Shown one piece after another: positions 16,135-38,641 of a stretch of 64,000 nucleotides of DNA; the stretch's first letter is position 1; every line of letters starts with the position of its first letter. The notes beneath the pieces are model-generated. The model saw only the letters and a list, made by a program, of their open reading frames with translations, searched no databases and was not told where the DNA came from. The DNA comes from Caldicellulosiruptor owensensis OL (GTDB taxonomy: Bacteria > Bacillota > Thermoanaerobacteria > Caldicellulosiruptorales > Caldicellulosiruptoraceae), in assembly GCF_000166335.1 (NCBI RefSeq), contig NC_014657.1, positions 2,214,501-2,278,500 on the forward strand, written 5' to 3'. The position numbers and the translations under genes are program-made.

Positions 16135-17769
16135 TTATTGTATCAATACAGGCACACTTCCCCCCTGGCTCTCTGCAATAGCTTTTTTAACTCGCTCCAA
16201 CATGTATCTCGCAAAACCCTCAAAGTTCTGGGCCAATACCTTTAAACCTGCGTTTACTCTACATTTTACAAGTCCCCTTACTCGAAGCTTCGAAAGACCA
16301 TGACCCCTCTTCAAGGCTGAATTAGTACCTTCTATTGCTGCTCTTTTGCTCTTGTGCCCCTCACACTTACATTCTATCTTTTCCCGTTGTTTGGCTGCTT
16401 CTATCGATTTTAGATTTACCCTCACCACATAATCTTTTTTCTGCTCTTTGCAATAACATTGATTTTTTAATTCACAATTTGCACAGGCTTCTCTTGGAAA
16501 ATGGGCTACCGTCTGCCACTTCTTAACACCGGCATGGATGGGTATTATTCCCCCTGGGCATCTTTTTATCACTTCCGTCTCTTCATCTATTTCATATCCG
16601 GTCACTGATATCCTAACAGGCTTCCTGCCGTTTAAACCAGTAAAATGAAGTTCTACACAGTTCTCTTTTGCAATTTGTACTACTTCTTTGGAGTAATAAC
16701 CACCGTCTACATAGACTTCTTGACATTTTGTATTCTGTTTTACAATAGGTAGTCTCTCTTTTAAAAGCTCTACATCACCTTTTATGTTCTTTTCTACCGT
16801 ATAGTCTGTTATGAGCTGGAAGGGATTTTCTTTTGCACAGGTTTCGCTAAGGTTTAAAACATATCCGCTTTCAGCTTTGTTCCCTTTCTTGCGATAAGTA
16901 GCATCCTCATCGTATGCTGACTGAAGTGAATCGCTGGGTATGCTTTTGCTATCTTTGGCTTTGAGCTTCTTGGTTTCTTCATCGTAGTACGCCTGTTCTG
17001 ACAAAAATCTTTCAAGGATTCTATACGCATCGGAGTTTTTTAGTTCAGAAATGTTTTCAATTGTTTCTTTTGTTTCTTGGCAAAGATTCAAGAGTATTTC
17101 GAGCTTGCTTTCGCCTTCCGAAGGCTTGGTTTTGTGTATCACTTCTGTCCTAAATTCAGGGTTGAAAACTTTTTTTAGGTTCTCTGAAAGTTTGTCTTCA
17201 GGAATGGATTTTACTGCCCTGTAAAGTACATCAAAGGCAAGGGCAACTCTTCCTGCTTTTTTGATGTTTGACATGAACATGGTGGAGTCTATTCGCTGTT
17301 TTTTCATGCATATACCTGCTTCTTTGGTAAAAATCATGGTAAGATTTAAAAACTGCCCAAATATTAAGTCTTCTTGTTCAGGATGTTTTATGAGGTATTG
17401 GTATATCCTTGTTCTAAAGTCATACAAGTTTTTTTCTGAAAGGTTCATACCTCCCAATGTTCTTATTCCTACAGCATAATTTATCAGGTAATTGAAGTTG
17501 AAGTTTTCGATAAGTTCATCATCAGAGTAGTTTTTAAGGTGTTTTATGTATTCCAAGGAAAGAAGTATGTTAACCGGCAAGTTGGCCCTTCCTGTATCAC
17601 TGTATAAAACTGAAAAGTGTTTTTCATCAATGTTGCAGAACACGTATTTATAAAATATGGGTGCCCATGATTTTTCAAGTTTAGTCTTTATCCTTGAATC
17701 CATGAAGTTAACACTTTCAAATAATGATTGTTGGAGATGGTCGTTGTTTTCTCTAAACAAGTGCAACAT
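16135..17769 (-). CDS. IS1182 family transposase, intact
   Basis: This 544-residue transposase has an N-terminal DUF772-type domain (about 45-130; LPVNILLSLEYIKHLKNYSDDELIENFNFNYLINYAVG) and a DDE catalytic domain. The first Asp is likely in IDSTMFMSN and the second in QEVYVDGGYYSKEVVQ. The Glu is in KRAAIEGTNSALKRGHGLSKLRVRG. A Cys-rich insert (CANCELKNQCYC) precedes the last block and is common in IS1182. There are no stops or frameshifts, so it may be active. The start codon lies inside the candidate terminal repeat, with a GGAG about 18 bp upstream. Confidence 0.9.
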   Translation of the reverse strand: MLHLFRENNDHLQQSLFESVNFMDSRIKTKLEKSWAPIFYKYVFCNIDEKHFSVLYSDTGRANLPVNILLSLEYIKHLKNYSDDELIENFNFNYLINYAVGIRTLGGMNLSEKNLYDFRTRIYQYLIKHPEQEDLIFGQFLNLTMIFTKEAGICMKKQRIDSTMFMSNIKKAGRVALAFDVLYRAVKSIPEDKLSENLKKVFNPEFRTEVIHKTKPSEGESKLEILLNLCQETKETIENISELKNSDAYRILERFLSEQAYYDEETKKLKAKDSKSIPSDSLQSAYDEDATYRKKGNKAESGYVLNLSETCAKENPFQLITDYTVEKNIKGDVELLKERLPIVKQNTKCQEVYVDGGYYSKEVVQIAKENCVELHFTGLNGRKPVRISVTGYEIDEETEVIKRCPGGIIPIHAGVKKWQTVAHFPREACANCELKNQCYCKEQKKDYVVRVNLKSIEAAKQREKIECKCEGHKSKRAAIEGTNSALKRGHGLSKLRVRGLVKCRVNAGLKVLAQNFEGFARYMLERVKKAIAESQGGSVPVLIQ

Positions 17770-21138: not shown

Positions 21139-21474
21139 TTAAGGATGATTTGACATTATTAAAGTATCACAAATAAGTTCTGAAAATCGGTTTATTATTA
21201 CATTGATTAATAGGCGAAAATGCACTGAAGACTTCAGTATATCTTGCCATAAAAAACTTTGGGTGTATAAATAATTTTGTGTATTTAAGATAAACCGTCT
21301 TTCTTGGTAAGTAATCATTTCATAACCCAGAGTTTCTTCAATCTCTGCTCCTAAAAAACTTTGAAGTACATCCTCAAATGAGTCTTTTAAGCTTTCGTAA
21401 ATATCACTTACACTCTGAATATTGTTTTTTCTTATAAACTCTAAGAGCTGCTTTTTTGTTAAAACATTTTCCAT
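21139..21474 (-). pseudogene. IS256 family transposase, N-terminal remnant
   Basis: The first 50 or so residues (MENVLTKKQLLEFIRKNNIQ, then a segment with LKDSFEDVLQSFLGAEIEETLGYEM) are the recognisable N-terminus of an IS256/mutator-type transposase, normally about 400 residues. After that the frame runs into unrelated sequence and stops at 111 residues. The DDE catalytic region is missing. The ATG is preceded by AAGGAGG, which is held in a 12-bp inverted repeat. It is a dead fragment, probably left by an internal deletion. Confidence 0.75.
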
Positions 21475-21483
21475 AACAAAAAA

Positions 21484-21534
21484 CCTCCTTCTTGGATATT
21501 TTTGTTTATATTCTGATTCTTACCAAGAAGGAGG
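21484..21534 (-). promoter_or_regulatory. Inverted repeat covering the transposase ribosome binding site
   Basis: CCTCCTTCTTGG (21484-21495) and CCAAGAAGGAGG (21523-21534) are perfect 12-bp inverted arms. In the minus-strand transcript the arm nearest the start codon contains the AAGGAGG ribosome binding site, so the hairpin would block translation. In IS10 and IS50, comparable hairpins stop translation of read-through mRNA; that role is inferred here. Confidence 0.6.
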
Positions 21535-21620
21535 TCTTTATACTTTATACAAAATTATCTATAGTCTCTAATAAGTAAAGACCCCTTAACTCTGTTTTAA
21601 ACGTTATTTTCCCCACAAAA

Positions 21621-21692: not shown

Positions 21693-24600
21693 TTAAAAAA
21701 CTCCTGCTTTTTCTAAGATTCGATAAAGAATTGCTGCTGCCTCCGACCTTGTTGAATTCTTTTGGGGTTTAAATGTATTATCATTATATCCTGTAACAAT
21801 ACCCAGTCTTGCAGCATTTTCTATAGCTTCCCTTGCCCATGTGCTAATCTGGCTTGCATCAGAATAACTTAATGAAAAATGTTCTTTTTCAAACCCTGTT
21901 AATTTGCTATATGCTCTCATAACAACCATAATCATTTCTTCTCTTTTGATTGGTTCATCTGGTCTAATTTTTTTGCCATTTCCTGCAACAATCCCAGCTT
22001 TATATGCTGCTTCTATAATATTTGCATACCAGGCGTCTTTCTTTACATCTTCGAATTCTCCTTTGTAGTCTTCTTCAGCTATGCCCAAAGTTCGTGCAAC
22101 CATTGCAATGAACTCAGCCCTTGTTACTGCCAAGTTTGGTTCAAATGTTTCCTCAGTTCTGCCCTTGATTATATGCTTTGATGCAAGAATATTTATTGGT
22201 TCATAAGCCCAAAAATCCTTTGGAACATCTTTAAACTGTTTATCATATTCAAATGCTCCATAGGTGGAAAGATGATTTATTTCTACTACAACAACATTTG
22301 ACTTCTTATCAACTTTTCCACCAACATATTCCCATTTTTTGCTTGTTTCATTTAAATAATATATTCCTACTTTTCGAATATCACTTGCATTTTTCACTTC
22401 AAAGGCTAATTGAACAGTAAAACCAGAATTTATTTTTCCTTTGCCTGTTTTCACAGTTATATTGTAGATACCCGAAACAGGTTTTAACCTATCAATTACT
22501 TTTTGTTCTTTATTTTCCAATGCAAACACTATCGAATTAGTTTCGTCTTCTGCACTTGCAATTTCTTTCAATGTCAGAATATTTCTTGAATTAAACTTAA
22601 TGCTGATATCATCAGATTTTATTGAAATTATCTTATCTTTTTCACCTGCGGATTTTACAACATTCATAGGTATTGAAATTTCTTTAACAGGCTTTAAAGA
22701 GATACCAGTGACGTCAAAGCCAATCTCTTTCTTTGTATTTTCTGCAATCTCTTTTGATATTTTATTTAGATCAATGATTACAGTGGCTTTGTTCGTTTGT
22801 TCAACAACTTTTCCGAAATTGGTCTCCTTTTGTTTTTCTGCAGCTACAGTTTGAGTAATTTCTTCTGCTTTTGTTTCTTTTGTTTCTTTCTGTAATTCTA
22901 TTTCAGATTTCTCTACATTTTGCAATATAGTTTCTGTAGATGGAATAATCTGTGGTTGAATTTCAACTGTAGATATTTTAGGAGCAATAAATTTCAAGAA
23001 GTTGCCCCAGATAATATTTCCATTTGAATCCCTACTATATTGAACTGGTTTTTCTAAACTTGCAAAGTTAGATTCTGTAAGTCTAATCCCCTTTTTATTG
23101 ACCGACTCTGTACCGTTCCAAAAATAGTTACTATCACTCACAACGCTTTCCGGGTAAGAGTCTTTAGGTCCTGAAACTGTTCTATATGAAACAAAATTCT
23201 CAACTTTAAACTGAAGAGGTATTCCTGTATAAGAATATAGTGCTATGTTAGAACCCACATTGTTATAAGAAACGCAGTTGTAAATTTGCACTGCAGGATT
23301 GCTGTTGCTAGTAAATCCCGCTCCTCTGTTACCAAAAGCAATAGAACTTTTTACGACATGTCCAACTGCGATACCCTCACCGCCCAGTTTAAATCCATTT
23401 CCGTCACCTTTTGTAACTGTTCCATCAGTTAAATATCCATTTTCGTATGCAACGCAGTCTTCTATTGTAACTGGTCCTATAGCTCCTGTTCCTAATTTAG
23501 TATACAAATCCCATCCATCATCGGTATTATGATGTGCAATGCAACCTCTAAAAACATTTCCTACTCCTGATGTAAGTTTTGCTGCAAATCCATCCGCATT
23601 GTTTTCTGAAGGGTCGCGATTATTATATGAAGTACAATTTATTATTAAGTTATAAGACGGCCAATCTGAAATACTTGAAGATAAATCTGTCCTGCTTATC
23701 TGAAGACCAGTGTCTCCATTTTCATAAAAATTGCACAGTTCAATTACGTTATAGCTACCTCCAATTACAGCTCCTTGAGTGTTCGGAGCAGAGCGTGCAA
23801 AATCGATACCTTTTATATACCAGTAATTGCCGCTAAGAACAAAACCTCCTCCTTTTTTATCAAAATCAATAACAGGTCTTGCCCCAGGAGCAGCAACAAG
23901 GTATTTCATAGCGTTTGGCGCTCCATCGTTATATTTTTTGATTTCCAGCTTAGTGCTGCGGACATATACCCCGTCAAGCAAAATAATTTTTTGTCCTTCT
24001 CTTACAAAATCAATAGCAGTGTCTAAGTCCAAAGGATTTTGTATAGTCCCATCACCATCACTTGTTCCATTAGGTGCCACATATATATCTCCACCTGGTG
24101 CATAGGTCTTCATGGTAACTGTGAAGTTTTTAATAATCCTATCATATGAAGTTAAATATTGAGTATTATCAGGTAGAAATACAATTCTAAAATCTGTAGT
24201 CCCTTCATTTAGTTTTGTTTGAACATTTACTATTTCGTTAGCTTTAACTTGTCTGTCCTGAACGATGGTTTCAGAACCTTTCACAATAGTTATAAATCCA
24301 TCAACATTGCTCCTTACAAGCAAGTTATAATTTTGTTTTGAGGTTTTGTCCAAAGATAGTATACTAAAATCTGGTATAGTTGGACTTTGTGGCGGCATAA
24401 CTCTTGGTGGATCAGTTTCTGAAGCAGTTACTCTAAAATCTATGTTGTAAACCTCGATTTCTGCAACACGTGCTGCAAAAAATCCCACATACATCTTTGG
24501 GGTTTGAACGCTTAGAATGTCTGGTTCATAAAAGATAGCTTCTTTCTCTTCTACCCCATCAAAAAGCTTTCCAATAAAACCACTATTAGTTTTTGCCAAC

Positions 24601-26771
24601 GTGAGCCTATAAGTTTTTGCAGGATAAGTGTTATCAATAGTAGGTTTTTCTTCTTTTAACATTATGTTCTGGATACCTTTACTACCTGTTCCATCAGGTG
24701 ATGTAACTCCTATTCTCATAAAAAGCTGAGTTCCATTAGGTTTTTTAGTACCTCCACTAAAGCCGCCAACGGCTACCATGTTTGATGCAAAAACACTTGA
24801 ATCACCCGGCGTTCCTATTGCATCCCTTGCCATAATACCAAAAGATTCTTGACCATCGTGCGGTGTTTTTGCATAGTTTATTACCTTTATATCTGCTGAG
24901 AGAACAAAATTATCTTTTGTTGCATCTAATTCTGTGTAATAAAATGTTATACCATCATGGTCAGTTGCTACCTTTCCACCACCATCTAAAGCTACAATTC
25001 TAATTGCTCCATCATCCTTAATTTCAACAAAGTTCTTGGTATCTGAGGTAGATTGCCCAAATCTAATTGATTTCCACTCATATTCTTTTCTCTCTCTTAC
25101 AGTAACTTTGAAAATTATCGGGTTTACGCTTAAATTAACAGGGACAATTTTTATATCATATATTCCCGACGTTGAACTATCAAATCTTGAAATATCAATG
25201 GTATATTCGTTTTCCGATAAGATTTCTTTATCTCCATTATCATAAACTTTAGACACTACTAATCCTGTTGGATCAAATGATTCACCTATATAATAAGTGG
25301 TTTTTGGATACGTAGTAACTTCGATTCCAATGAGTTGTTTTTCTTTTACGGTAACCATAAATTTTGTTGACACACCTTTGTATGAAATTGTAACCTCTTT
25401 GTTACCAGCAACAGTAGTGTCAATCGGAGTATATGAATATTCCCCATCCATTAATTTTACCTCTGAATTATCGCTATATTTTGCATAAACAATAAGTCCC
25501 TTTAAATCTAATTCTTCCCCAATAAAATAGTTTACTTTATTCGGTAGACGTTTTATTTCCAAGCCTATAATTTGAGCATCTTTAACATTTACATCGAAAC
25601 TTGTGCTGATTTGTGGATTTTCAACTGAAATTATCATAATAGTCTTCTTACCAGAAGAGTTAAATACATAGCTATCATCAATTGGAATACCTGATATCGA
25701 AAATTTATACTTATCCGATGTCAACTCTAAGGATTTGCCATTGTTATATTTTCCTATAACCACAAGTCCTTCAGGATTGAATTTATCGCCAATATAATAT
25801 TCTGTTTTTATTGGCAGATATTTTATTTCAAGTCCTGTACATACTAGAGGAAGAATATTTATGTTAATAATTTTTGAAACGTTACCATATTGAATTGTAA
25901 CGGGACATACTCCTGGTTTTGTATTATCAAAACCCGTTACAATATAATCATTCTTTGACAGAGTTTCTTCTGTGCCATCTGTATAAATTGCTGTAACTTT
26001 GAGTCCACTTAAATCCAAATCTTCGCCAACAATATACTCAGTTTTCATTGAACTTGTATCAACTCTGAGATCTTTCACTTCCCTAATTTCTACAATTTCA
26101 AAATTACTAAAAGTTATTTCGGCATCTCTTGCCACATATAAACCTGCATAAATGTAGTCACCAAACATGTTATCAAGATTAAATGTCTGGGTTGTACCAT
26201 TACACGAAACAACATATGTATTGCCTGATTTTTTTATACTGAGGTCATATTGCATACCAGTTGTCGGAGTTGTGTTTATTAGTGTTATTTTGGTTTGCTG
26301 TCCACTTTCCTTATATACAGCCTTCATAACAGTGTCAAGAGCACCAACTAAAATGTAATTTGACGTTTGAGTTGTCGAATCTCCATTTGCTCCAACCTTT
26401 TCTCTGAGCATAATTCCAAAAGATTTTTGGTTTGGTGTACTGATACTACTGTTGCTATTAAAACTTATAACAGCTGCTTTTGCTCTTATTTCAAAACTTG
26501 CATCTGAAGCAATAGTTTTGAAATAAAAAGATATGCCTTCATCCGTACTTGCTATTTTTCCACCAGTAGCTTTCAATGTAATTGAACCATCTGAATTAAA
26601 TGTAGGCAGAGGATTTTTATCAGCACTTGTATTGCTGCCAAATGCTCTAAATTCCCAATCACTTAAGATATTGCTTGTCCCTTCAGCAAAAACAAAACTT
26701 AGCTGGCTTAAAATTAAGCTTAAAATAAGTAAAAAACTCAAACTTATTTTTGTCAATTTATAAAATTTCAT
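21693..26771 (-). CDS. Cell-surface PL9 pectate lyase with Ig-like and three SLH domains
   Basis: This secreted protein of about 1692 residues has a signal peptide (MKFYKLTKISLSFLLILSLI..FAEG). A first concanavalin-like beta-sandwich covers about 30-225, four Big_3 bacterial Ig repeats (YxIGExxDLxGLxVxAxY) about 225-560, a second beta-sandwich about 565-790, and one Ig-like unit follows. The PL9 right-handed beta-helix is about 905-1240, starting GDIYVAPNGTSDGDGT and including NNADGFAAKL and HNTDDGWDLYTK, the calcium and catalytic-Lys region of the family. A linker region leads to three SLH domains (last about 180 residues) that bind cell-wall polymer. It should cut polygalacturonate by beta-elimination at the cell surface. 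The ATG at 26771 follows CGGGGGGTAGCTAAA; the frame extends 47 codons upstream into a decayed copy of another gene's leader. Confidence 0.9.
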   Translation of the reverse strand: MKFYKLTKISLSFLLILSLILSQLSFVFAEGTSNILSDWEFRAFGSNTSADKNPLPTFNSDGSITLKATGGKIASTDEGISFYFKTIASDASFEIRAKAAVISFNSNSSISTPNQKSFGIMLREKVGANGDSTTQTSNYILVGALDTVMKAVYKESGQQTKITLINTTPTTGMQYDLSIKKSGNTYVVSCNGTTQTFNLDNMFGDYIYAGLYVARDAEITFSNFEIVEIREVKDLRVDTSSMKTEYIVGEDLDLSGLKVTAIYTDGTEETLSKNDYIVTGFDNTKPGVCPVTIQYGNVSKIININILPLVCTGLEIKYLPIKTEYYIGDKFNPEGLVVIGKYNNGKSLELTSDKYKFSISGIPIDDSYVFNSSGKKTIMIISVENPQISTSFDVNVKDAQIIGLEIKRLPNKVNYFIGEELDLKGLIVYAKYSDNSEVKLMDGEYSYTPIDTTVAGNKEVTISYKGVSTKFMVTVKEKQLIGIEVTTYPKTTYYIGESFDPTGLVVSKVYDNGDKEILSENEYTIDISRFDSSTSGIYDIKIVPVNLSVNPIIFKVTVRERKEYEWKSIRFGQSTSDTKNFVEIKDDGAIRIVALDGGGKVATDHDGITFYYTELDATKDNFVLSADIKVINYAKTPHDGQESFGIMARDAIGTPGDSSVFASNMVAVGGFSGGTKKPNGTQLFMRIGVTSPDGTGSKGIQNIMLKEEKPTIDNTYPAKTYRLTLAKTNSGFIGKLFDGVEEKEAIFYEPDILSVQTPKMYVGFFAARVAEIEVYNIDFRVTASETDPPRVMPPQSPTIPDFSILSLDKTSKQNYNLLVRSNVDGFITIVKGSETIVQDRQVKANEIVNVQTKLNEGTTDFRIVFLPDNTQYLTSYDRIIKNFTVTMKTYAPGGDIYVAPNGTSDGDGTIQNPLDLDTAIDFVREGQKIILLDGVYVRSTKLEIKKYNDGAPNAMKYLVAAPGARPVIDFDKKGGGFVLSGNYWYIKGIDFARSAPNTQGAVIGGSYNVIELCNFYENGDTGLQISRTDLSSSISDWPSYNLIINCTSYNNRDPSENNADGFAAKLTSGVGNVFRGCIAHHNTDDGWDLYTKLGTGAIGPVTIEDCVAYENGYLTDGTVTKGDGNGFKLGGEGIAVGHVVKSSIAFGNRGAGFTSNSNPAVQIYNCVSYNNVGSNIALYSYTGIPLQFKVENFVSYRTVSGPKDSYPESVVSDSNYFWNGTESVNKKGIRLTESNFASLEKPVQYSRDSNGNIIWGNFLKFIAPKISTVEIQPQIIPSTETILQNVEKSEIELQKETKETKAEEITQTVAAEKQKETNFGKVVEQTNKATVIIDLNKISKEIAENTKKEIGFDVTGISLKPVKEISIPMNVVKSAGEKDKIISIKSDDISIKFNSRNILTLKEIASAEDETNSIVFALENKEQKVIDRLKPVSGIYNITVKTGKGKINSGFTVQLAFEVKNASDIRKVGIYYLNETSKKWEYVGGKVDKKSNVVVVEINHLSTYGAFEYDKQFKDVPKDFWAYEPINILASKHIIKGRTEETFEPNLAVTRAEFIAMVARTLGIAEEDYKGEFEDVKKDAWYANIIEAAYKAGIVAGNGKKIRPDEPIKREEMIMVVMRAYSKLTGFEKEHFSLSYSDASQISTWAREAIENAARLGIVTGYNDNTFKPQKNSTRSEAAAILYRILEKAGVF

Positions 26772-27097
26772 TTTAGCTACCCCCCGTTCTTCATTTATCT
26801 TGTTTATTGCCTGTATAGCCTCACGCAACCGGCCATTGCCCCGCCAATGCTTTTTCATGCAGTACTGACCCAAAATCCAAAAAAACATTTGCAAAAAACA
26901 AAATCGCAACAACTAAAAATTTAGTATCCTTTTTCTCCCCACCATTTGACATCCTTTACATTTGATAATTTGTTATTAACTATAAAATTTTAAATTATTG
27001 CTTACTCACCTCCCTTTTTTATAGGATAATTAGCCTTTTGTAGAAACGCTCAATATGAGTGTTATCAAGCTTTATAAAGATTCAAAAAAGTCTGGTC
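26772..27097 (-). other. Upstream region of the PL9-SLH gene
   Basis: This gap holds the decayed duplicate of the promoter, leader and signal-peptide region of the FN3 protein gene (26801-27032), and then about 60 bp up to the first arm of the hairpin in front of the decayed transposase. No intact gene is present. The promoter of the PL9-SLH gene is likely inside the duplicated block. Confidence 0.6.
26801..27032 (-). repeat. Copy B of duplicated promoter, leader and signal-peptide segment (copy A at 38301-38530)
   Basis: About 230 bp match 38301-38530 at high identity by eye, including gcaaccggccattgcc, ctttttcatgcagtactg, tttgataatttgt and taaaattttaaattattg. Relative to copy A, this copy has extra T residues in the signal-peptide region that shift the frame, and TGG changed to TGA (GCGTGAGGC). 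The signal peptide it once encoded is therefore dead. The upstream (promoter) half is well kept and may still drive the PL9-SLH gene. Confidence 0.85.
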
Positions 27098-27163
27098 ACC
27101 CTCCTCCTAGTTGTAGTAAAATACGATTATATAAAACAAATTTTCTACTATGAGGAGGGGTCC
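27098..27163 (+). promoter_or_regulatory. Inverted repeat covering the ribosome binding site of the decayed transposase
   Basis: The first arm (27098-27122, ccctcctcctagttgtagta) pairs imperfectly with the second arm (27140-27163, tactatgaggaggggtcc). The second arm carries the GAGGAGGGG ribosome binding site of the ATG at 27167. The arrangement is the same as at 21484-21534 in front of an unrelated transposase. Confidence 0.55.
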
Positions 27164-27166
27164 AAA

Positions 27167-28610
27167 ATGTTAAACAACAAACCTAAACAACTTTCTTTAC
27201 CAGAATCTATTTTCCCACCTAAAGGCTTCGGCTCCCTATAACTCTTGATGCCCTCTTGGGCTTGTTCAATAAATTCATCGACTTATCAAACTACATACCT
27301 TCTTTTTTCTACAATGCCTACTACAAATACTTTGATAAGCATAGATGCTTCTCCTTAGAATCTATGCTCCTTTGCTTTTTTGTCCAAAAATTACTCAAAC
27401 TCAATACCCTTACCCAGCTTCGCGCTGTTCTACTTATACTGCCATGAACTTCGTTCCTTCTGTAATTCTTTTTGGCAATGTTCCATCTATTTCAACCTTC
27501 TCTCGCATCAAGAAAATCTTCAACATCGAGATCCATAAACTTTTTCAAAATATCTCTATCCACGCACACAATGTTTCTATTAGGCAGTCCCCTGAACTTG
27601 CTTCAATCTTAATCTTCGATACAACCGGTATTGTCCCAAAGGTCCGTGAGAATAACCCTAAATTCATTCATCTACTGCTGAAAAATACCTCAAAAGCTAA
27701 CCCTGAGCTGTCCTCTGATAAAATCTACTCTCTTGTTGTTTATTCTTCTTTGCCTAAAACTGCAAATAGCTTTTTCTAATATCCGTCTTATGTTCATAAA
27801 TGGCCATTTCTGCTGGGCTTTAAAATTCGCTGTCATCATAAGCGCTCTCGGTATTCCTTTGGCTTTAGTACCTCTGTTTAACTCTGATTCTCCTTCTTCT
27901 GACCCTCAAGAAGCAAAGGCTATCTCTGACTTCTTTTGCCTTATTTCCTTCGCTCGAAACTCTATTCTCTTACATTCCCAAAAATTTCTCCACTTTCATC
28001 GCTGACAGTGCCTTGGATGCACATAACATCTACTCAACTTTAAAAAACACTTTCAACTTCTCCAAAATCATTATCCCTCTAAATCCAAGAGCCTCTAAAA
28101 ATACTATACCTACATCAAGCCCTAATATCGTTATATCTGAAGATGGTGTCCCTATCTGTAAAAAGTTCAATCAACCTTATTAAGCCTGAAGGCAAATGTC
28201 AGGGTAAAAATCGTTCTGTCCCTCTTAAATGGACTTGTCCTATGTCGTCTTACAAAGATGGCAAACGCATTTGCCTTGCCCTTAAGCCTTGTTACTTTCT
28301 CTAAATCTGGCAGCAATAGTCTACACTTACCCTGATGATTTTCGCTCTTTTCCAGGTATCAACAGAAATTCTCAAGAGTTTTTAGACCTCTACAATAAAC
28401 GTGTCGTTTGTGGAGCAGACTATTTATCACCTAAAATCCTATATGGGCTCCGATGTCATCTGTACTTATGACCATATTTCTATCTTCTCTGATTTTTTAC
28501 TCTCTGCAATTACTTACTCACTTTTGTTTATACTTGCTCACAATATCAAACTCTATTGTTCTAAATTAACTATCAAAAAGCTTAACAAACTCAAAAAACT
28601 TATCGCTTAA
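27167..28610 (+). pseudogene. Degraded DDE transposase, several frameshifts and stops
   Basis: Conceptual translation jumps between frames. It starts with MLNNKPKQLSLPESIF, then FNKFIDLSNYIPSFFYNAYYKYFDKHRCFSLESMLL, then IFDTTGIVPKVRENNPKFIHLLLKN, then NGHFCWALKFAVIISALGIPLAL, then FSTFIADSALDAHNIYSTLKNTFNFSKIIIPLNPRASKN. This order looks like an IS4/IS5-superfamily DDE transposase, the first Asp probably being in IFDTTG and the second in IADSALDA. At least four frame interruptions make it inactive. I cannot assign the exact IS family. Confidence 0.7.
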
Positions 28611-28965
28611 AACTACAATTTTTCTTAAATCATTAATCTACCAAAAATTTGTGACTTTGTTTTTTACTTAACCTTCTAAAGCCAAGAAGCTAGAAGGCTT
28701 AGGATACTATTGTCTTTTTTGATATTGTTAATTTTTGTCATATGTTTGTTGCTGATTAATTTTGTTGGTATTGATAATATTTGGTTATCATTTTGCTTTT
28801 CTTTTTGTATCTTGATTGTATTTCATGTTAGTATTGGCATCTCTTGCCTTCAATCACCACCCATTTTGCAAACGGTTATATTTTCTTTTTCGTGAAAAAT
28901 TTTTATACAAATAATCCTATGATTATTATAAAGCCCTAAGGAACATTTCTCTAATTTTACTATTT
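28611..28965. other. AT-rich intergenic DNA downstream of the decayed IS
   Basis: It contains the IS-end hairpin (about 28671-28698) and a small hairpin AATAATC / GATTATT (28910-28927) that could end transcription of the SLH protein gene on the minus strand. A 61-codon hydrophobic plus-strand frame (28710-28895) has no ribosome binding site and looks like chance in T-rich DNA. Confidence 0.5.
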
Positions 28966-30612
28966 TTATTTTAACTGCTGTGTATAGTAGCTATTTATTA
29001 ATCTGTATATAATAATAGCAACCTCAGCTCTCGATGCATTATCGGCAGGTTTCAAAATATTGTTACTTCCATGGACAAATCCTTCTGCTACAAATTTTTG
29101 TATGCTCTCTTTTGCGTAGTTTGAGATTTTCATTGCATCTTTAAAAGCATTTATATTCATACTCCCGTTTTGATACTTGTAACCTGCAACTTTTAATGCT
29201 CTGTCAGCCATAACAATCATATCCTGTCTTGTAATATACCCCTTTGGATTGAATTTCCCGTCTCCAACTCCATTTACAATACCAAGAGCTTTTGCTATAG
29301 CAACAGCATCATAATAATAATCATCTTTCTTAACATCTACAAAACTATCGTTCTTAACAGGTGCACTGAGTTCAAGAGATCTTACAAGCATCAGTAAAAA
29401 GTCTGCCCTTGTTATTGGTTTTTGAGGTGCAAAGTTATTGTTATCAACCCCGTTTATTATTCCTCTTGATGCTAATATTTCTATTTGTTCTTTTGCCCAG
29501 TTAACATCTTTTATGTCAGCAAAAGTTTTATGGTTTTCTACAACAATATACTTAGCTGAATCTCTTGCTCTAAATGCAATTTCTTTATTGTTTGCAAAAT
29601 ACATACTGCTTGCAACAGGCTCAATCTTGCCATCTTCAGCTACTTTCATCACTGCTAAATACTTTGTTTGAACCCCAATTGAAGGAACATATTTACTTTT
29701 TACAATAACAGGTTTTTGTACATCTTTGTTTGTTAATACTTTATCATCAGCTTTGACCTCAACTTTTAAAGCCATTTCTATGCTTTTCCCTACCAATTGC
29801 TTGATATCATTTAAATCTTCGCTTGAAATTTTACCTATGTTAACACTCAAGTTCTCAACTTTCAATGAACTTGAAACTATATCTGCAGGAACTTTTACCT
29901 GAGCAATATTTGTTGAAATATCAAAAACAACATTTTTATCCACAACAGCTTTTAATGGAATTACTTGTTCGTATTCTAAAACGTTGGTTTTTGTATCAAC
30001 AGAAATCTGAATAATTTTCTCTCCATTCTCATTAGTCTTTACATTTGCTACTATCTGAGATAATGTCTTTTCATCCACTTTAGAGATGGCTACCTCTCCA
30101 ACTACTTGAATTTGAGGTTTAATAACCGTTGACTGCACCTGTTGAGTCTGTTGCTGCTGACTGGTTTGCCCCTGCTGTGTTTGTTGAGTTTGAGTTTGCT
30201 GTTGGGTCTGTTGCTGGGTTGAAGTACTTGTGCTTGGTAAAATAACGCTAACACTTGAAAAACTTGATTGTTGGGTAGTTGTATATGTTATTGTTTTTGA
30301 GATAGGCGCTGCTAAATCTTTTGAGTATATATAAACTGTATAAACACCTTCTGACTTGCCTGCAAGAGAATATTTAAATTCATAAGTTCCATCGTTCCCT
30401 GCAGTTGTCTGATCCAAATAATCTATGTTTCCAAACGGATCTAAGACCTTTACAGTCACACTGGCATTTGTAATTGCCTTGCCATTAATCACAAGATATT
30501 TATTTGAATCTATACTTATATTCACTGTAAAATTTGCCGATAGTACCGGAAAAGCTAAAAGTAATATTGCAGTTGCACAAAATAACGATATAAAATTCTT
30601 TACTCTTTTCAA
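28966..30612 (-). CDS. SLH-domain surface protein with Gln/Thr-rich linker
   Basis: This 548-residue secreted protein has a signal peptide (about 1-26, ending LLAFPVLSANF) and a small Ig-like or CarboxypepD-like domain (about 27-112; NASVTVKVLDPFGNIDYLDQT). A Gln/Thr/Ser-rich linker follows at about 128-165 (runs like QQQTQQTQ), then a beta-rich middle region (165-365), and three SLH domains at the C-terminus (about 366-548; FADIKDVNWAKEQIEILASRGIINGV is the first). There is no catalytic signature. The start is TTG after GGGGGAAATTCAG. It sits in the pectin island directly downstream of the PL1-CE8 gene. It may be a structural S-layer component, an adhesin or a scaffold; the middle region is not recognised. 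Confidence 0.85.
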   Translation of the reverse strand: MKRVKNFISLFCATAILLLAFPVLSANFTVNISIDSNKYLVINGKAITNASVTVKVLDPFGNIDYLDQTTAGNDGTYEFKYSLAGKSEGVYTVYIYSKDLAAPISKTITYTTTQQSSFSSVSVILPSTSTSTQQQTQQQTQTQQTQQGQTSQQQQTQQVQSTVIKPQIQVVGEVAISKVDEKTLSQIVANVKTNENGEKIIQISVDTKTNVLEYEQVIPLKAVVDKNVVFDISTNIAQVKVPADIVSSSLKVENLSVNIGKISSEDLNDIKQLVGKSIEMALKVEVKADDKVLTNKDVQKPVIVKSKYVPSIGVQTKYLAVMKVAEDGKIEPVASSMYFANNKEIAFRARDSAKYIVVENHKTFADIKDVNWAKEQIEILASRGIINGVDNNNFAPQKPITRADFLLMLVRSLELSAPVKNDSFVDVKKDDYYYDAVAIAKALGIVNGVGDGKFNPKGYITRQDMIVMADRALKVAGYKYQNGSMNINAFKDAMKISNYAKESIQKFVAEGFVHGSNNILKPADNASRAEVAIIIYRLINSYYTQQLK

Positions 30613-30645
30613 CTGAATTTCCCCCTTTTTCTTTCTTTATTTTAG

Positions 30646-30676
30646 AGAGGGGAAAGGCAAAAATTCCTTCCCCTCT
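30646..30676 (-). terminator. Terminator of the PL1-CE8 gene
   Basis: The arms AGAGGGGAAnGG / CCTTCCCCTCT have a short AT-rich loop. It lies 33 bp downstream of the PL1-CE8 stop codon and upstream of the SLH protein gene. Confidence 0.7.
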
Positions 30677-30708
30677 GAAAATCAGTATTTTAAATCTCAA
30701 GATAAACT

Positions 30709-33700
30709 TTACTTAAAGGTTGCAATATTGGAAAGATTACCTTTTGTCTTTAACGTATCAACAATGTAAGCTTTTATTACCGGTCCATTTACATTGTTTA
30801 CTTTTAAACCTGCTTTGTATGTTATAGTCTTTCCTGCCTCTATTGATATCTTTTTACCTGCATATGCAACTAATATACCTTTGGAGTCAAATATTCCAAC
30901 TATAATTGTTCCATTTCTTCTAAGTCCCGTATTGTTTTTAACATTTATAGTTACTATTATGTCTTTATTGGAACCTATTGTACTCAAGCTTGTACCCGCT
31001 ATGTTTTTAACTTGAATAATCTGAACTGTAAAAGCATTTGAACCCCAATCAATTTCATAAACAACTTTGAATGTTGTTATTCTAACATTTCCACCTTCAT
31101 CAACAACAACTAAATCTAAGCTATTTTCACCTTCTACCAGTGAATAATCAAAGCTAAACTCTTTATTGGCTTCAACAATTAAACTTCCTAAGGTTTCACC
31201 ATTACGCTTGAACGTCACAGTCCCATTTTTGCTTATTTTAGCTTTTACCGTTACAGTCGACCTTGTTGTCTTTGATACCGGTGCTTGAAGTACTGTTATT
31301 TCAGGTGCATAGTTTATAAAATCAACAGTTAATAGCTTCACTACATTTTCTCCTGCTTTAGAAGCAATAACCAATATATTGTTTGTTCCATCTGCTAGAG
31401 CAACTGGAACAGTTACTTGTGTATTAGCAGTATAGGCAGGATTGGTATAAACAACTTCATTTCCTCTTTTCACTGTCAGTTCACAATCTGAGTCAACAGT
31501 TATGTTAATAGAATAATTCATCTTAGTTGTAGAATCTTTTTGAGAATTTCTAATATAAACCTTAATTGGATCATAAATAGTGTCAATAAAACTATCTGCA
31601 TCCCAACCATCTAAAACATTTTGTTTTGTATAGACTTGTGCCATTACATCATCAAGCTGAGGTCTATATTCATTAATTTTAGCACCAGGTCCATAATTTT
31701 TATATTCATAGAACCTCTCATTTTGTGGATAAAACCAGATTGTATTACCAGAGCTATCAGTTGAACTCATAGATGTCCAGCCATAATCATTAATGTGATC
31801 ACCTAGATACGACTCTCTAATTACAACATTTACCCATCTGTTCAAATCAGCGCTTGGATGCCATGGTCTTCCTAAATACACTGAATTAGCAACTGTTACA
31901 TTAGACAAGAATTTGCAGTTTACAAACAAGAAACCAAAATTGTCAGACTTTCTTGTTGAAGCTGCTGTAATATAACCTTTTGGTGTTATGCCTGGTCTGT
32001 CAACCGAGAATATGGTACTATTTTCAAACACTGCTTGGGCAGCACCAAATATAAAGTCAACATCACCTTCGATGTAACAATTCTTGAAATATTGTCTTCC
32101 TGCATCTGCGTACAAAGTATCCTGATTGCCTATAAATCTACAGTTCTTGAATACCATCTTGTCAGCAAGTGATCTTACAGCAACAGCTTGTTTGCTTGAA
32201 ATTGGCTGGTTCTCATCAAAAGCATTTTCAAATGTGATGTTCTCTGCAGTGAAGTTAATGGCACCACTGTTGATAGTCACACTTGCACTTCCAGATGTTC
32301 CATATGTGCCAGAACCATCTGGTTTGGGCGTGCCTGCTGCAACGTCATAAGTCAAAATTGTGGTAAATGGATCTTCACCAATCAAACTAATATTTGGTGA
32401 ATTAATAGTTATCTTCTCATAATATCTGCCACTCTTTATAAAGATTATGACTCTCTTGGTGTTATTTGAAGGTACACTGTTTACTGCTGCCTGAACTGTC
32501 TTGAATATCTTGACTCCATTGACTATATCTCCATCGTTTCCTGTATAGTTCTTGTCTACCATAATGTCAAAATTAGCAAGGTATATAACATCAAAGCTTT
32601 CTGTTGTTGTATTGCCACTAAAATCCTTAATTATTATTTCTATCTTGTTTCTTCCTTTTTCAAAGTCGATGTTGAAGGTAACCGGGCTATTTGCCTTTAC
32701 ATAATCATTTTGATATACAACCATGTTGTTCTGCATGATAGTCACATAAGCATCCTCATTTGACGAAAGCACCAAGCTGTATGCACTGCTGAGCACTGTT
32801 GGCTGCGGTTTTGATACCCAGCTTATAACTGGCTTTTGATTATCGTATACAACGTTTAAAACAATCTGCCTCGTCTTTGAACCATCTACTGTCTGTAGGT
32901 TTACAGAAATTGTATTGTTACCACTTACAAGCTGTACTGGTACTTCAAACTCAGTTTGTCCACTCACATCCACATTCTTGGTATCTGTGCTTGATGCATT
33001 TGTTACTGTTATCTTTCCATCGACGCTTGCATATCCTTTTATTTTGTATTCTCCAACGTTTGTATAATCATTCTCTGGATTATATATCTCTATAAAGTTA
33101 TCCGAAGTTGTTAAGCTTATATTTGAAAACTTCGCTATGTTATAGTTGTAAATCTGATTTGTCGCCTGAGCAGAATCTACTGCAAATCCTATATAGTACT
33201 CATCGCCTATGTTGAGTGTGTATCTGCCTATCACATTCCATGTCCGACTATCAAGTGAATATGCTGCTTCAACAACAGAACCACTCTTCTTTATTTTCAT
33301 CCACGATACCTCTACATTCACAACTGTGTTCGGTGTGCTTGAATCTACATCACCAGTATTTGCCATTGATGCATTTGCCACCTGTCTTGCAATAAATCTT
33401 ACCGCTGTCGGATTGGTCAGCTTGTCAGCTTTTACATATGACTTTGCTACATACGCAGCAACTGCTCCAGGGTCAAGCGAACTTCTCACCATAAGACCTG
33501 CAAACGCGTTGTGGTCTACCTTTTCCATATAATCTATCTTCGCTATGAGCTCTGCATCTCCATATACCTTCCTGTACACATATCCGAACGTATCAGTTGA
33601 ACCACCTATTTTCCCATTTGCCTTTAATGTCAGTGTTCCGCAATTATCAAGTGATGCGCTTGTCTTTATAGCAGGACTTCCTATATCTGCAACTTTCCAT

Positions 33701-35337: not shown

Positions 35338-35403
35338 TCCTGTATACCTCCTTCTTTCTAAAGACCTTATAATTATATTTTGAGAAAATAAAATTAGGTT
35401 TTC

Positions 35404-35438
35404 GCAGAGGAAGACAATCACTTTTTGTCTTCCTCTGC
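35404..35438 (-). terminator. Terminator after the FN3 protein gene
   Basis: The arms GCAGAGGAAGACA / TGTCTTCCTCTGC (13 bp, perfect) have a 9-nt loop, 50 bp after the stop of the FN3 protein gene. The minus-strand tail is not a pure T run, so read-through into the PL1-CE8 gene is possible. Confidence 0.75.
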
Positions 35439-35487
35439 TTATATTATTCTTGTTTGTCATTTAAAAATATGGTTCTTTATTTACTGG

Positions 35488-38439
35488 CTACTTTATCTCA
35501 ATTGCCGTTGAAAGAGGTATCATCCCATCTATTGAGTTCCAGATAAATGCTTTAGCTTTTAGCGCTGGTGTTGTACTTGGCAATTGAATACCTGCTAAAA
35601 GCTCCTCAGCTGCAGCCGGTTCTACGGTATCGAATGAGATGCTGTACCCTACCATTTGGTTTGCACTGTTATAAAGAACTATTATGAGTGCTAAATCTTT
35701 ACTTACATTTAGCTTATTATCTGCTTTTGCTAAAACAGTTAATGTGGAACCAACTGTTATGCTTGTCACCTGATTCTCATTATCGTCTATAAAACTGATA
35801 TCTTTTATCATGTACTCATAAACTGTGGTCCACTGTGCTGCAGTCTGGTTACCTGCCTTATCTGTTGCCACAAACTCTATTGTGTTTTTACCCTCTATCA
35901 GGGTCAACACGACCTCTTGTTCTTGACCAGAACTGCAATATGTTGCTGTCACAACTGGCTGTCCATTTACTTTTACATCTACATATACATCCTCATCTGC
36001 AACAAACTTTAAGACTGCTGTTGGTGCGATATTCTCATATTCAGGTGGGATTGTCTTGAACACTATCTGTGGTCTTGTCTTGTCATATATAACTTTCAAA
36101 TATGTGGTTGTTGTATATCCATCTGCCGCTGCTCCAACCAGTTCAAATGTATTGATTCCTTCCTGCAACGCTACGTCAATACTATACTGCCTTTCTTGTT
36201 CTACAGAATCGAATGTGGCTATTGTATCCTGCCCCTTCTTTACAATTAACGATGCTCCAGAGAATATCTTACCTGTCATAGTAAATGTGGATTTATTGGT
36301 GTATACCACTTCTTTTTGGTCAACTGTGTAAAGCTGCTTTTTCATCAGTACAAAGTAGAACACGCAACCACTGCTAACACCCTGATACCCGAGCTCTACA
36401 AGCGAACCCTTGCTAAAGGACTTCTTGTAAAGCATATATGTCACCTGCGGGTTGGTCCCATTATCTATTATCCTGTAATCTGTCAATGTCCATGTACTCA
36501 AAAACGGTGGCACCTGGTTAGATGTGTAAAGTCTTGAATCCAGTGCAACATATATGTCAACATCCTCTGTTACTGTAAAGCTTGCTATCACCGGCGTTGC
36601 ATTGTACGACCTCGAAAGATTTGCCGTGCTTATCCAGTATGCGCCTTCTAATACCGTCGGCATCGACACTACCGCATAATCCCTGTCACCAAATATCTTG
36701 CTGCCCACCTGCAAATTGTACTGCAGCGACCAGTTTGCTGCATTGTCCTGATCGTAAACTACCAAGTTTGTAACATAATGCGGTGGCAGTATTGGCATTG
36801 CTGAAACTTCCTGAGCATTGCTGCTTGTTCCACTATTGTTGCTCGCATTCATAGAAATATAATACGTCAGCCCTTCAAGCTTTCTAAATGTATATGAATA
36901 GCTTGAACTGCCATCATCATAAACTGTGGCACCCACTGTGTAGTTCTTCGAACTCTTGCCCAAAAAGATTGTATACTTCTCTGCATCCTCTACCCTGTTC
37001 CATTTCACAGTAAGCTCAAGTACTCCCGGTATTACCTCAAAAGTTGGAACTGCAGGTATCGGATATGGAGTTATAACAACCTCGTCAGAACCTTCACTAA
37101 GCCCTACATTATTTCCAGCGTATAGCCTTAAATAATAAGGCTTTTTGTTAACAAGATTTTCAAACTTGCATTCATAGGTCTGATTTGGCAAACCATTGTC
37201 ATTTATTATCTTCCAGTTTGTATAGTTGTTTGACTCCTCTCCTATATAAACAACATAATACGTCGCTTTCGAAACTGTCTTCCACTTTATTGACACCCAT
37301 CCATCACTGTACGCAGTCTGCAATACTGTTGGTTTTGGCGGAGGTATAGGCTTTTCAGGAATGACCGTTATTACATCTGATTCAACTGCACCATATCCAT
37401 TCTTTGCCCTCACCTTTACATAGTACTGTTTGCCATTGGTAAGTCTATCAATCGTGAAAAAGGCGTTACCTTGAACTACTAAAAGCCCCTCACTTTCCTC
37501 TGTAAGACCACTACCCACAGTGCTGTAATTTGAACCATCTTCCGAAATCAAAACATCATATGAAGTAACATTTCTGTCAAAATTCCACATAAGCTTTGCT
37601 TTAGAGTCGTCACTCTCAACTATAAGCTGGGGTTTTTGAGGAATATTAAAGATATCTGTCAGATTCTGTGGAGCGGTTGTGGTGTCTGCCGTACCTTCCT
37701 TAATCCTCACAAAACTTGTCTGAAGAGTAGCAGGACTTCCATTGCTTCCCTGAATGGCAACGCCAACACCTACATAGAGAGTAGAATTTAAGACACCAGC
37801 ACTGTTTTGGGAACCTATTGGTCCATACCAAGTTATAGTTCCATTACGGCTGTTAACTTCTCCATAATAGACTGCTATGTTTGTTGAAGATGATCTTACA
37901 ATTTTCAAAACACATGGGAACGATATTGCATTTCGCGTAGAAGAACCGGCAGCGCTTCCAAATCTTCTCTGAGCCCTCAAATCCCACTTGGTAGCACTTG
38001 CACTATTGTATTCTATCAACGCAGCGTAATAAGTGTCCTGAATATCAAGCCCATTTCTTACTATTAACCCTCCGCGTGGATAGTTTGAATTGGCTGAAGT
38101 AAAAGAAATTGGGTCTGTAATGTAAACGTATGCCGTGAAAACGGTGTTTGATATAGTAGTATAGACAAATGGAAAATAATCAACTGTGGTCGAAGTTTGA
38201 GTAGGTGTCCTGTTGATTTCTCCTTTTGTGCAGCTAACCGTGATCTTTCCTGTTTCATGGTCAAAAGCAGCTACAGGATTTTCTGGTTGATAAGTGCTAT
38301 TGCCTATTACTGTATAGCCCCACGCAACCGGCCATTGCCCAGCCAATGCTTTTTCATGCAGTACTGTCCCAAAACCCAAAAGAATATTTGCAAAAAACAG
38401 AATCGCAACAACTAAATTTAGTATCCTTTTTCTCCTCAT
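35488..38439 (-). CDS. Large secreted FN3/Ig multi-domain protein of the pectin island, catalytic role unknown
   Basis: This protein of about 983 residues has a signal peptide (RRKRILNLVVAILFFANILLG..KALAGQW). An N-terminal concanavalin-like region spans about 36-250, and three fibronectin type III domains about 260-540 (each with the pattern NGKxYYVKVRAKNGYG). A beta-sandwich follows at about 545-690 (VGSKIFGDRDYAVVSMPTVLEGAYWISTANLSRSY), then two Ig-like repeats ending with conserved KxIYD..RPQI, and a C-terminal domain (about 885-983) resembling the tail of PL1-CE8. The sandwich near 600 resembles modules seen in secreted polysaccharide lyases, but I see no lyase or hydrolase core. It could bind pectin or hold an unrecognised activity. 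The ATG at 38439 is 7 bp from GGAGG; a GTG directly before it is also possible. Confidence 0.82.
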   Translation of the reverse strand: MRRKRILNLVVAILFFANILLGFGTVLHEKALAGQWPVAWGYTVIGNSTYQPENPVAAFDHETGKITVSCTKGEINRTPTQTSTTVDYFPFVYTTISNTVFTAYVYITDPISFTSANSNYPRGGLIVRNGLDIQDTYYAALIEYNSASATKWDLRAQRRFGSAAGSSTRNAISFPCVLKIVRSSSTNIAVYYGEVNSRNGTITWYGPIGSQNSAGVLNSTLYVGVGVAIQGSNGSPATLQTSFVRIKEGTADTTTAPQNLTDIFNIPQKPQLIVESDDSKAKLMWNFDRNVTSYDVLISEDGSNYSTVGSGLTEESEGLLVVQGNAFFTIDRLTNGKQYYVKVRAKNGYGAVESDVITVIPEKPIPPPKPTVLQTAYSDGWVSIKWKTVSKATYYVVYIGEESNNYTNWKIINDNGLPNQTYECKFENLVNKKPYYLRLYAGNNVGLSEGSDEVVITPYPIPAVPTFEVIPGVLELTVKWNRVEDAEKYTIFLGKSSKNYTVGATVYDDGSSSYSYTFRKLEGLTYYISMNASNNSGTSSNAQEVSAMPILPPHYVTNLVVYDQDNAANWSLQYNLQVGSKIFGDRDYAVVSMPTVLEGAYWISTANLSRSYNATPVIASFTVTEDVDIYVALDSRLYTSNQVPPFLSTWTLTDYRIIDNGTNPQVTYMLYKKSFSKGSLVELGYQGVSSGCVFYFVLMKKQLYTVDQKEVVYTNKSTFTMTGKIFSGASLIVKKGQDTIATFDSVEQERQYSIDVALQEGINTFELVGAAADGYTTTTYLKVIYDKTRPQIVFKTIPPEYENIAPTAVLKFVADEDVYVDVKVNGQPVVTATYCSSGQEQEVVLTLIEGKNTIEFVATDKAGNQTAAQWTTVYEYMIKDISFIDDNENQVTSITVGSTLTVLAKADNKLNVSKDLALIIVLYNSANQMVGYSISFDTVEPAAAEELLAGIQLPSTTPALKAKAFIWNSIDGMIPLSTAIEIK

Positions 38440-38530
38440 CACTTGGCCTCCTTTACATTTGATAATTTGTAATTAACTGTAAAATTTTAAATTATTGTTT
38501 ACTCACCTCCTCTTTTTATGGGATAATATT
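38301..38530 (-). repeat. Copy A of duplicated promoter, leader and signal-peptide segment
   Basis: This block covers the first 46 or so codons of the FN3 protein gene, its ribosome binding site AAAGGAGGCC and about 90 bp upstream. Copy B lies at 26801-27032 in front of the PL9-SLH gene. Copy A is intact and is the likely source. Confidence 0.85.
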
Positions 38531-38598: not shown

Positions 38599-38641
38599 GG
38601 GGTTAGAGAGGTGGCGAAAATGGTTTTCCATCTCTAACCCC
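38599..38641 (-). terminator. Terminator after the GH28 gene
   Basis: The arms GGGGTTAGAGAGGTGG / CCATCTCTAACCCC form a long, nearly perfect stem 17 bp after the GH28 stop codon. The poly-T tail is poor, but the stem is very stable. Confidence 0.75.

Follow-up and report, generated by a model that had tools for sequence, protein, structure and literature searches.

The formation of hybrid promoters at the ends of insertion sequences (IS) is a known phenomenon, and it belongs, together with promoter capture by duplication and the scars left by IS-mediated rearrangement, to the situations closest to the locus described here. A further point of reference is provided by Clostridium cellulolyticum, for which one report describes intergenic stem-loops in processed operons (PMC4423207); hairpins in the pectin cluster considered here are similar to these. 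A search of the literature on the pectin genes of Caldicellulosiruptor owensensis found no description of the present locus. It lies in a 64,000-bp stretch of the C. owensensis OL genome (hereafter, the window), for which a sequence-only reading had proposed that the promoter, leader and signal-peptide region of one pectin gene was duplicated in front of another, placing both genes under shared regulation; the scar of a deletion of an FN3-like gene was offered as an alternative. The stump is real and explainable by ordinary processes: it is a decaying, IS-bounded remnant of an FN3-protein gene, situated where the PL9-SLH gene has been joined to the cluster.

The pectin cluster and its added lyase gene

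On the minus strand, the cluster reads GH28, FN3 protein, pectinesterase, SLH protein, IS, stump, PL9-SLH, IS remnant, solute-binding protein and GH43. The PL9-SLH gene (21693-26771, minus strand, 1692 aa) is predicted from Pfam and NCBIfam matches to encode a signal peptide, four Big_3 repeats, a PL9 beta-helix (PelX-like) and three SLH repeats. As had been read from the sequence, it begins just behind the copied block, with its start at 26771, a signal peptide of its own and its own G-rich ribosome site (GGGGGGTAGCTAAAATG) in front. The frame remains open backwards through the stump as far as 26912 (26772-26912), and a mechanical ORF call is 47 codons longer; gene callers may therefore add as many as 47 residues to the protein.

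In a comparison of 12 genomes, each from one species of the genus and including this one, the other 11 contained no full-length relative of PL9-SLH, matching it only in the catalytic part (46-47%) and in the SLH domains, the latter as in many surface proteins. The only match that one scan of genome contigs for a donor gave, at 39%, fell in the repeat region of an unrelated Clostridia MAG. A common N-terminal domain of the PL9-SLH and FN3 proteins was considered and set aside, as the similarity reached only E 0.009 across 39 residues.

Two other species (G002 and G004) carry the same pectin cluster, in which the solute-binding-protein gene comes immediately after the SLH gene, and the PL9-SLH gene, the stump and the IS are all absent from both loci. 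PL9-SLH and the stump are thus an IS-bounded addition, present only in this genome among the 12 species. The far side of PL9-SLH is marked by an internally deleted IS remnant of Mutator/IS256-like type (21261-21568, minus strand), made up of two pieces of a repeat that is multi-copy in most genomes of the genus and showing a weak Transposase_mut match (E 0.036). The pectin cluster of a thermophile has in this way grown by a surface-anchored PL9 enzyme inserted between two dead mobile elements. An IS1182-like transposase gene (16135-17769) also lies in the cluster, downstream of GH43.

The cluster is in addition a recombination mosaic. Against a baseline of about 87%, the FN3 gene is 95-97% identical to that of G002 over 38.8-36.5 kb, while over its last third (36.5-35.5 kb, about 1.0 kb) the identity to both G002 and G004 drops to 62-65%, the two relatives sharing 88-90% with each other in that region (35500-36500). 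This pattern marks a sharp recombination breakpoint inside the FN3 gene near 36.5 kb. Another mosaic stretch (28966-31500), made up of the SLH gene with the terminal part of the pectinesterase gene, is nearer to G004 (79-84%) than to G002 (65-74%). An Rfam search of 20-42 kb of the window gave no match.

A truncated and decaying copy of the FN3 gene end

When 26600-27100 was compared with the window by BLASTN, one other strong match was obtained: 26811-27030 aligns with 38310-38527 at 200 of 220 positions (91%, E 8e-85), the two gap positions representing a single 2-bp insertion. This identity lies above the line of about 70 percent that the sequence-only reading had drawn for a pairwise nucleotide alignment. 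The repeat it had reported is real, and both of its parts are present, but the dimensions are somewhat smaller than proposed: 220 bp instead of about 230, comprising 85 bp of leader (not 90) and 133 bp, or about 44 (not 46), signal-peptide codons. The parent block (38310-38527, minus strand) belongs to the intact FN3-protein gene (35488-38442), of which it holds the leader and the signal-peptide codons, and the copy (26811-27030, minus strand) is a truncated, dead version of that 5' end. These two are the only copies in the whole 2,428,903-bp genome. The orthologous block of G002 is 89% identical to the stump and the counterpart in G004 is more diverged; no second copy was found in the other genomes of the genus, the species itself being represented by one strain.

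The death of the signal peptide through extra bases and a TGG to TGA change was borne out. Owing to the 2-bp insertion, the FN3 frame stops after 10 codons, leaving a residual short reading frame within the copy (MVGRKRILNF and stop, 26913-26945, minus strand), and the TGA lies further along. The FN3 Shine-Dalgarno sequence AAGGAGG has become AAGGATG, and the GTG-ATG of the FN3 start has become ATG-GTG. Good preservation of the upstream half had also been claimed; at 90.6% identity the leader is indeed well preserved, yet the coding half is no worse off (92.5%, the insertion counted extra): copy and parent differ at 8 of 85 leader and 10 of 133 coding positions (Fisher p=0.62), and changes private to the copy amount to 5/85 and 9/133, respectively (p=1.0). 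Leader and dead coding half have decayed alike, small numbers leaving room for weak constraint.

The insertion sequence at the block edge

The decayed IS reported directly upstream of the copy is a dead element of 1,848 bp (27031-28878, plus strand), with imperfect terminal repeats (TAGCCTTTTGTAGAA / TAACCGTTTGCAAAA) and many stops in every frame. It is 94-96% identical to the same-genome copies L015 and L016 and equals L015 in length. Its end at 27031 abuts the end of the block at 27030 exactly. Unlike three sibling copies in the genome, which retain target duplications (17/17 bases in L015, 15/17 in L018 and 11/13 in L016), this element has no target-site duplication, indicating that it sits on a recombination or deletion junction. 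Its flanks come from two different places, one being the downstream region of the SLH gene, alignable to G002 and G004, and the other the DNA at position -85 of an FN3 gene, so the IS marks the junction between them.

Origin of the stump

Several observations point to a scar: the block is homologous to the FN3 5' end and has a dead frame, its edge coincides with the IS end, that IS lacks a target duplication, another IS remnant follows PL9-SLH, and G002 and G004 have none of the added DNA. The 220-bp block is probably what remains of the 5' end of a second FN3-protein gene, with an upstream edge set by the IS and a downstream edge set by a deletion that would have brought it next to PL9-SLH; of the readings offered earlier, the deletion scar is the one that fits best. 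Recombination between an IS copy downstream of the SLH gene and another lying 85 bp upstream of an FN3 gene would have produced the stump, or else an IS-adjacent deletion would have done so. The FN3 gene with an IS at -85 might have stood in this genome or in a donor strain, and most of the second gene would have been lost afterwards. Because the FN3 gene now in the cluster has no IS at -85, a tandem-duplication route would require that this site was replaced later. No further piece of the supposed second FN3 gene was found in the DNA separating the stump from PL9-SLH, and the 56 bp running from the stump edge to 16 bp inside PL9-SLH have no convincing match to the other intergenic regions of the cluster. 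A derivation of these 56 bp from intergenic regions or from the rest of the FN3 gene was rejected, as the scores either lay inside the range given by shuffled sequences or just reached its limit. A partner IS or an intact second FN3 gene would support one route, and the scar as such does not need either.

The stump may have originated by duplication within this genome or may have been imported from a related strain. If it was imported with PL9-SLH from an unsampled relative that had an FN3-like gene ahead of the lyase, no duplication took place in this genome, and this is a serious candidate although it falls short of being probable. PL9-SLH is without a full-length relative among the sampled species, the cluster is a mosaic, and the stump is about equally distant from the FN3 genes of this genome and of G002 (91% and 89%). 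With G004 as outgroup, however, four informative sites join the stump to its own FN3 gene versus one that joins the latter to G002, a difference that an AU test does not find significant. An import is one of the two origins that the scar explanation leaves. By contrast, it is very unlikely that the IS carried 220 bp of adjacent FN3 DNA to a new place by one-ended transposition. The IS and the block do form a contiguous unit whose flanks share up to 10 of 14-15 bases, but a similarity of this size ranks at about the 95th-99th percentile for random flanks, was the best from five choices of boundary and fails to convince.

Possible promoter function of the copied leader

The DNA upstream of the FN3 genes of this genome, G002 and G004 contains, besides a hairpin that follows the stop codon of GH28, one strongly conserved stretch, a 24-bp element (ATTATCYYATAAAANNRGGAGGTG) that is retained at the very edge of the copy (27007-27030, minus strand; 38504-38527 in the parent). 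From its sequence, the element could represent a -10 box, a transcript start and a distal SD-like sequence. Across the 12 genomes, it occurs with zero mismatches only upstream of these three FN3 genes and in the copy, the search pattern having been drawn up from the FN3 sequences themselves, copy included. A shared regulon motif was rejected on account of this restriction, and matches with three mismatches are about as frequent as in a reversed control.

The copy begins with the first base of the element, and the DNA upstream has been replaced by the IS end. The 85-bp leader thus starts at or inside the candidate -10, and the rest of the 215-bp GH28-FN3 intergenic region, including the conserved hairpin and any -35 or activator site, is missing. 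The capture of an intact promoter is therefore doubtful. T-tract-free hairpins precede the FN3 (38599-38641), pectinesterase (about 35400-35440) and SLH (about 30640-30680) genes, those before the FN3 and pectinesterase genes having counterparts in G002 and G004, and they may serve in the processing or stabilisation of the mRNA of a long pectin operon. By analogy with the processed operons of C. cellulolyticum, the FN3 leader may be a processed 5' end, in which case the block need not contain any promoter. The called start of the pectinesterase gene at 35460 covers the intergenic hairpin (35400-35460), and comparison with G002 and G004 places the true start probably further downstream.

Functional promoter capture, with PL9-SLH driven by the copied leader and controlled like the FN3 gene, is thus unlikely. 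The conserved element is retained, the copy has the right orientation about 240 bp before the PL9-SLH start, and the short frame of the stump would interfere less because its SD and start codon are damaged; on the other hand, the copy starts only at the candidate -10, a promoter scan detects no sigma-70-like site on the minus strand of the block or of its parent, and the leader is preserved no better than the dead coding half, which leaves the shared regulation proposed by the sequence-only reading a conjecture. A truncated or IS-hybrid promoter is possible. TTGAGC, a -35-like sequence read in the IS end, stands 16 bp from AATTAT, the -10-like sequence of the stump at the junction, and such a hybrid would express PL9-SLH without co-regulating it with the FN3 gene. 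The pair matches only 8 of 12 consensus positions, under the scan threshold, and matches of this kind are common in AT-rich DNA, making a working hybrid rather unlikely, if compatible with the scar explanation. Under the latter, any transcription of PL9-SLH from the stump would rely on the retained -10-like element and an upstream half supplied by the IS, with no intact FN3 promoter. That a horizontally gained surface lyase has been wired into the pectin response of its host, the IS end and the FN3 -10 and leader forming a new hybrid promoter and the distal SD-like GGGAGGTG stabilising the transcript, is an improbable extension of what the sequence suggests. A fragment of a resident gene lies at the join of a PL9 enzyme seen in no other sampled species; if it drives the lyase gene, regulation was acquired together with the new gene, and if it does not, the fragment is an ordinary scar.

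Comparison with described systems

As in promoter capture by duplication, a copied leader precedes an unrelated coding sequence and shares its orientation. In contrast to such cases, the copy here is cut off at or within the candidate promoter, and no sign of selective preservation is seen. With the hybrid promoters of IS ends it shares a native -10-like element placed directly against the IS end and reading outward toward a gene, but the consensus match is weak here. The locus differs from the scars of IS-mediated rearrangement in that the partner IS and the intermediate duplication are not preserved, so that the exact route is one we infer; as in such scars, the truncated end of a duplicated gene abuts the end of an IS that lacks a target duplication, and the empty site in the related genomes G002 and G004 also matches.
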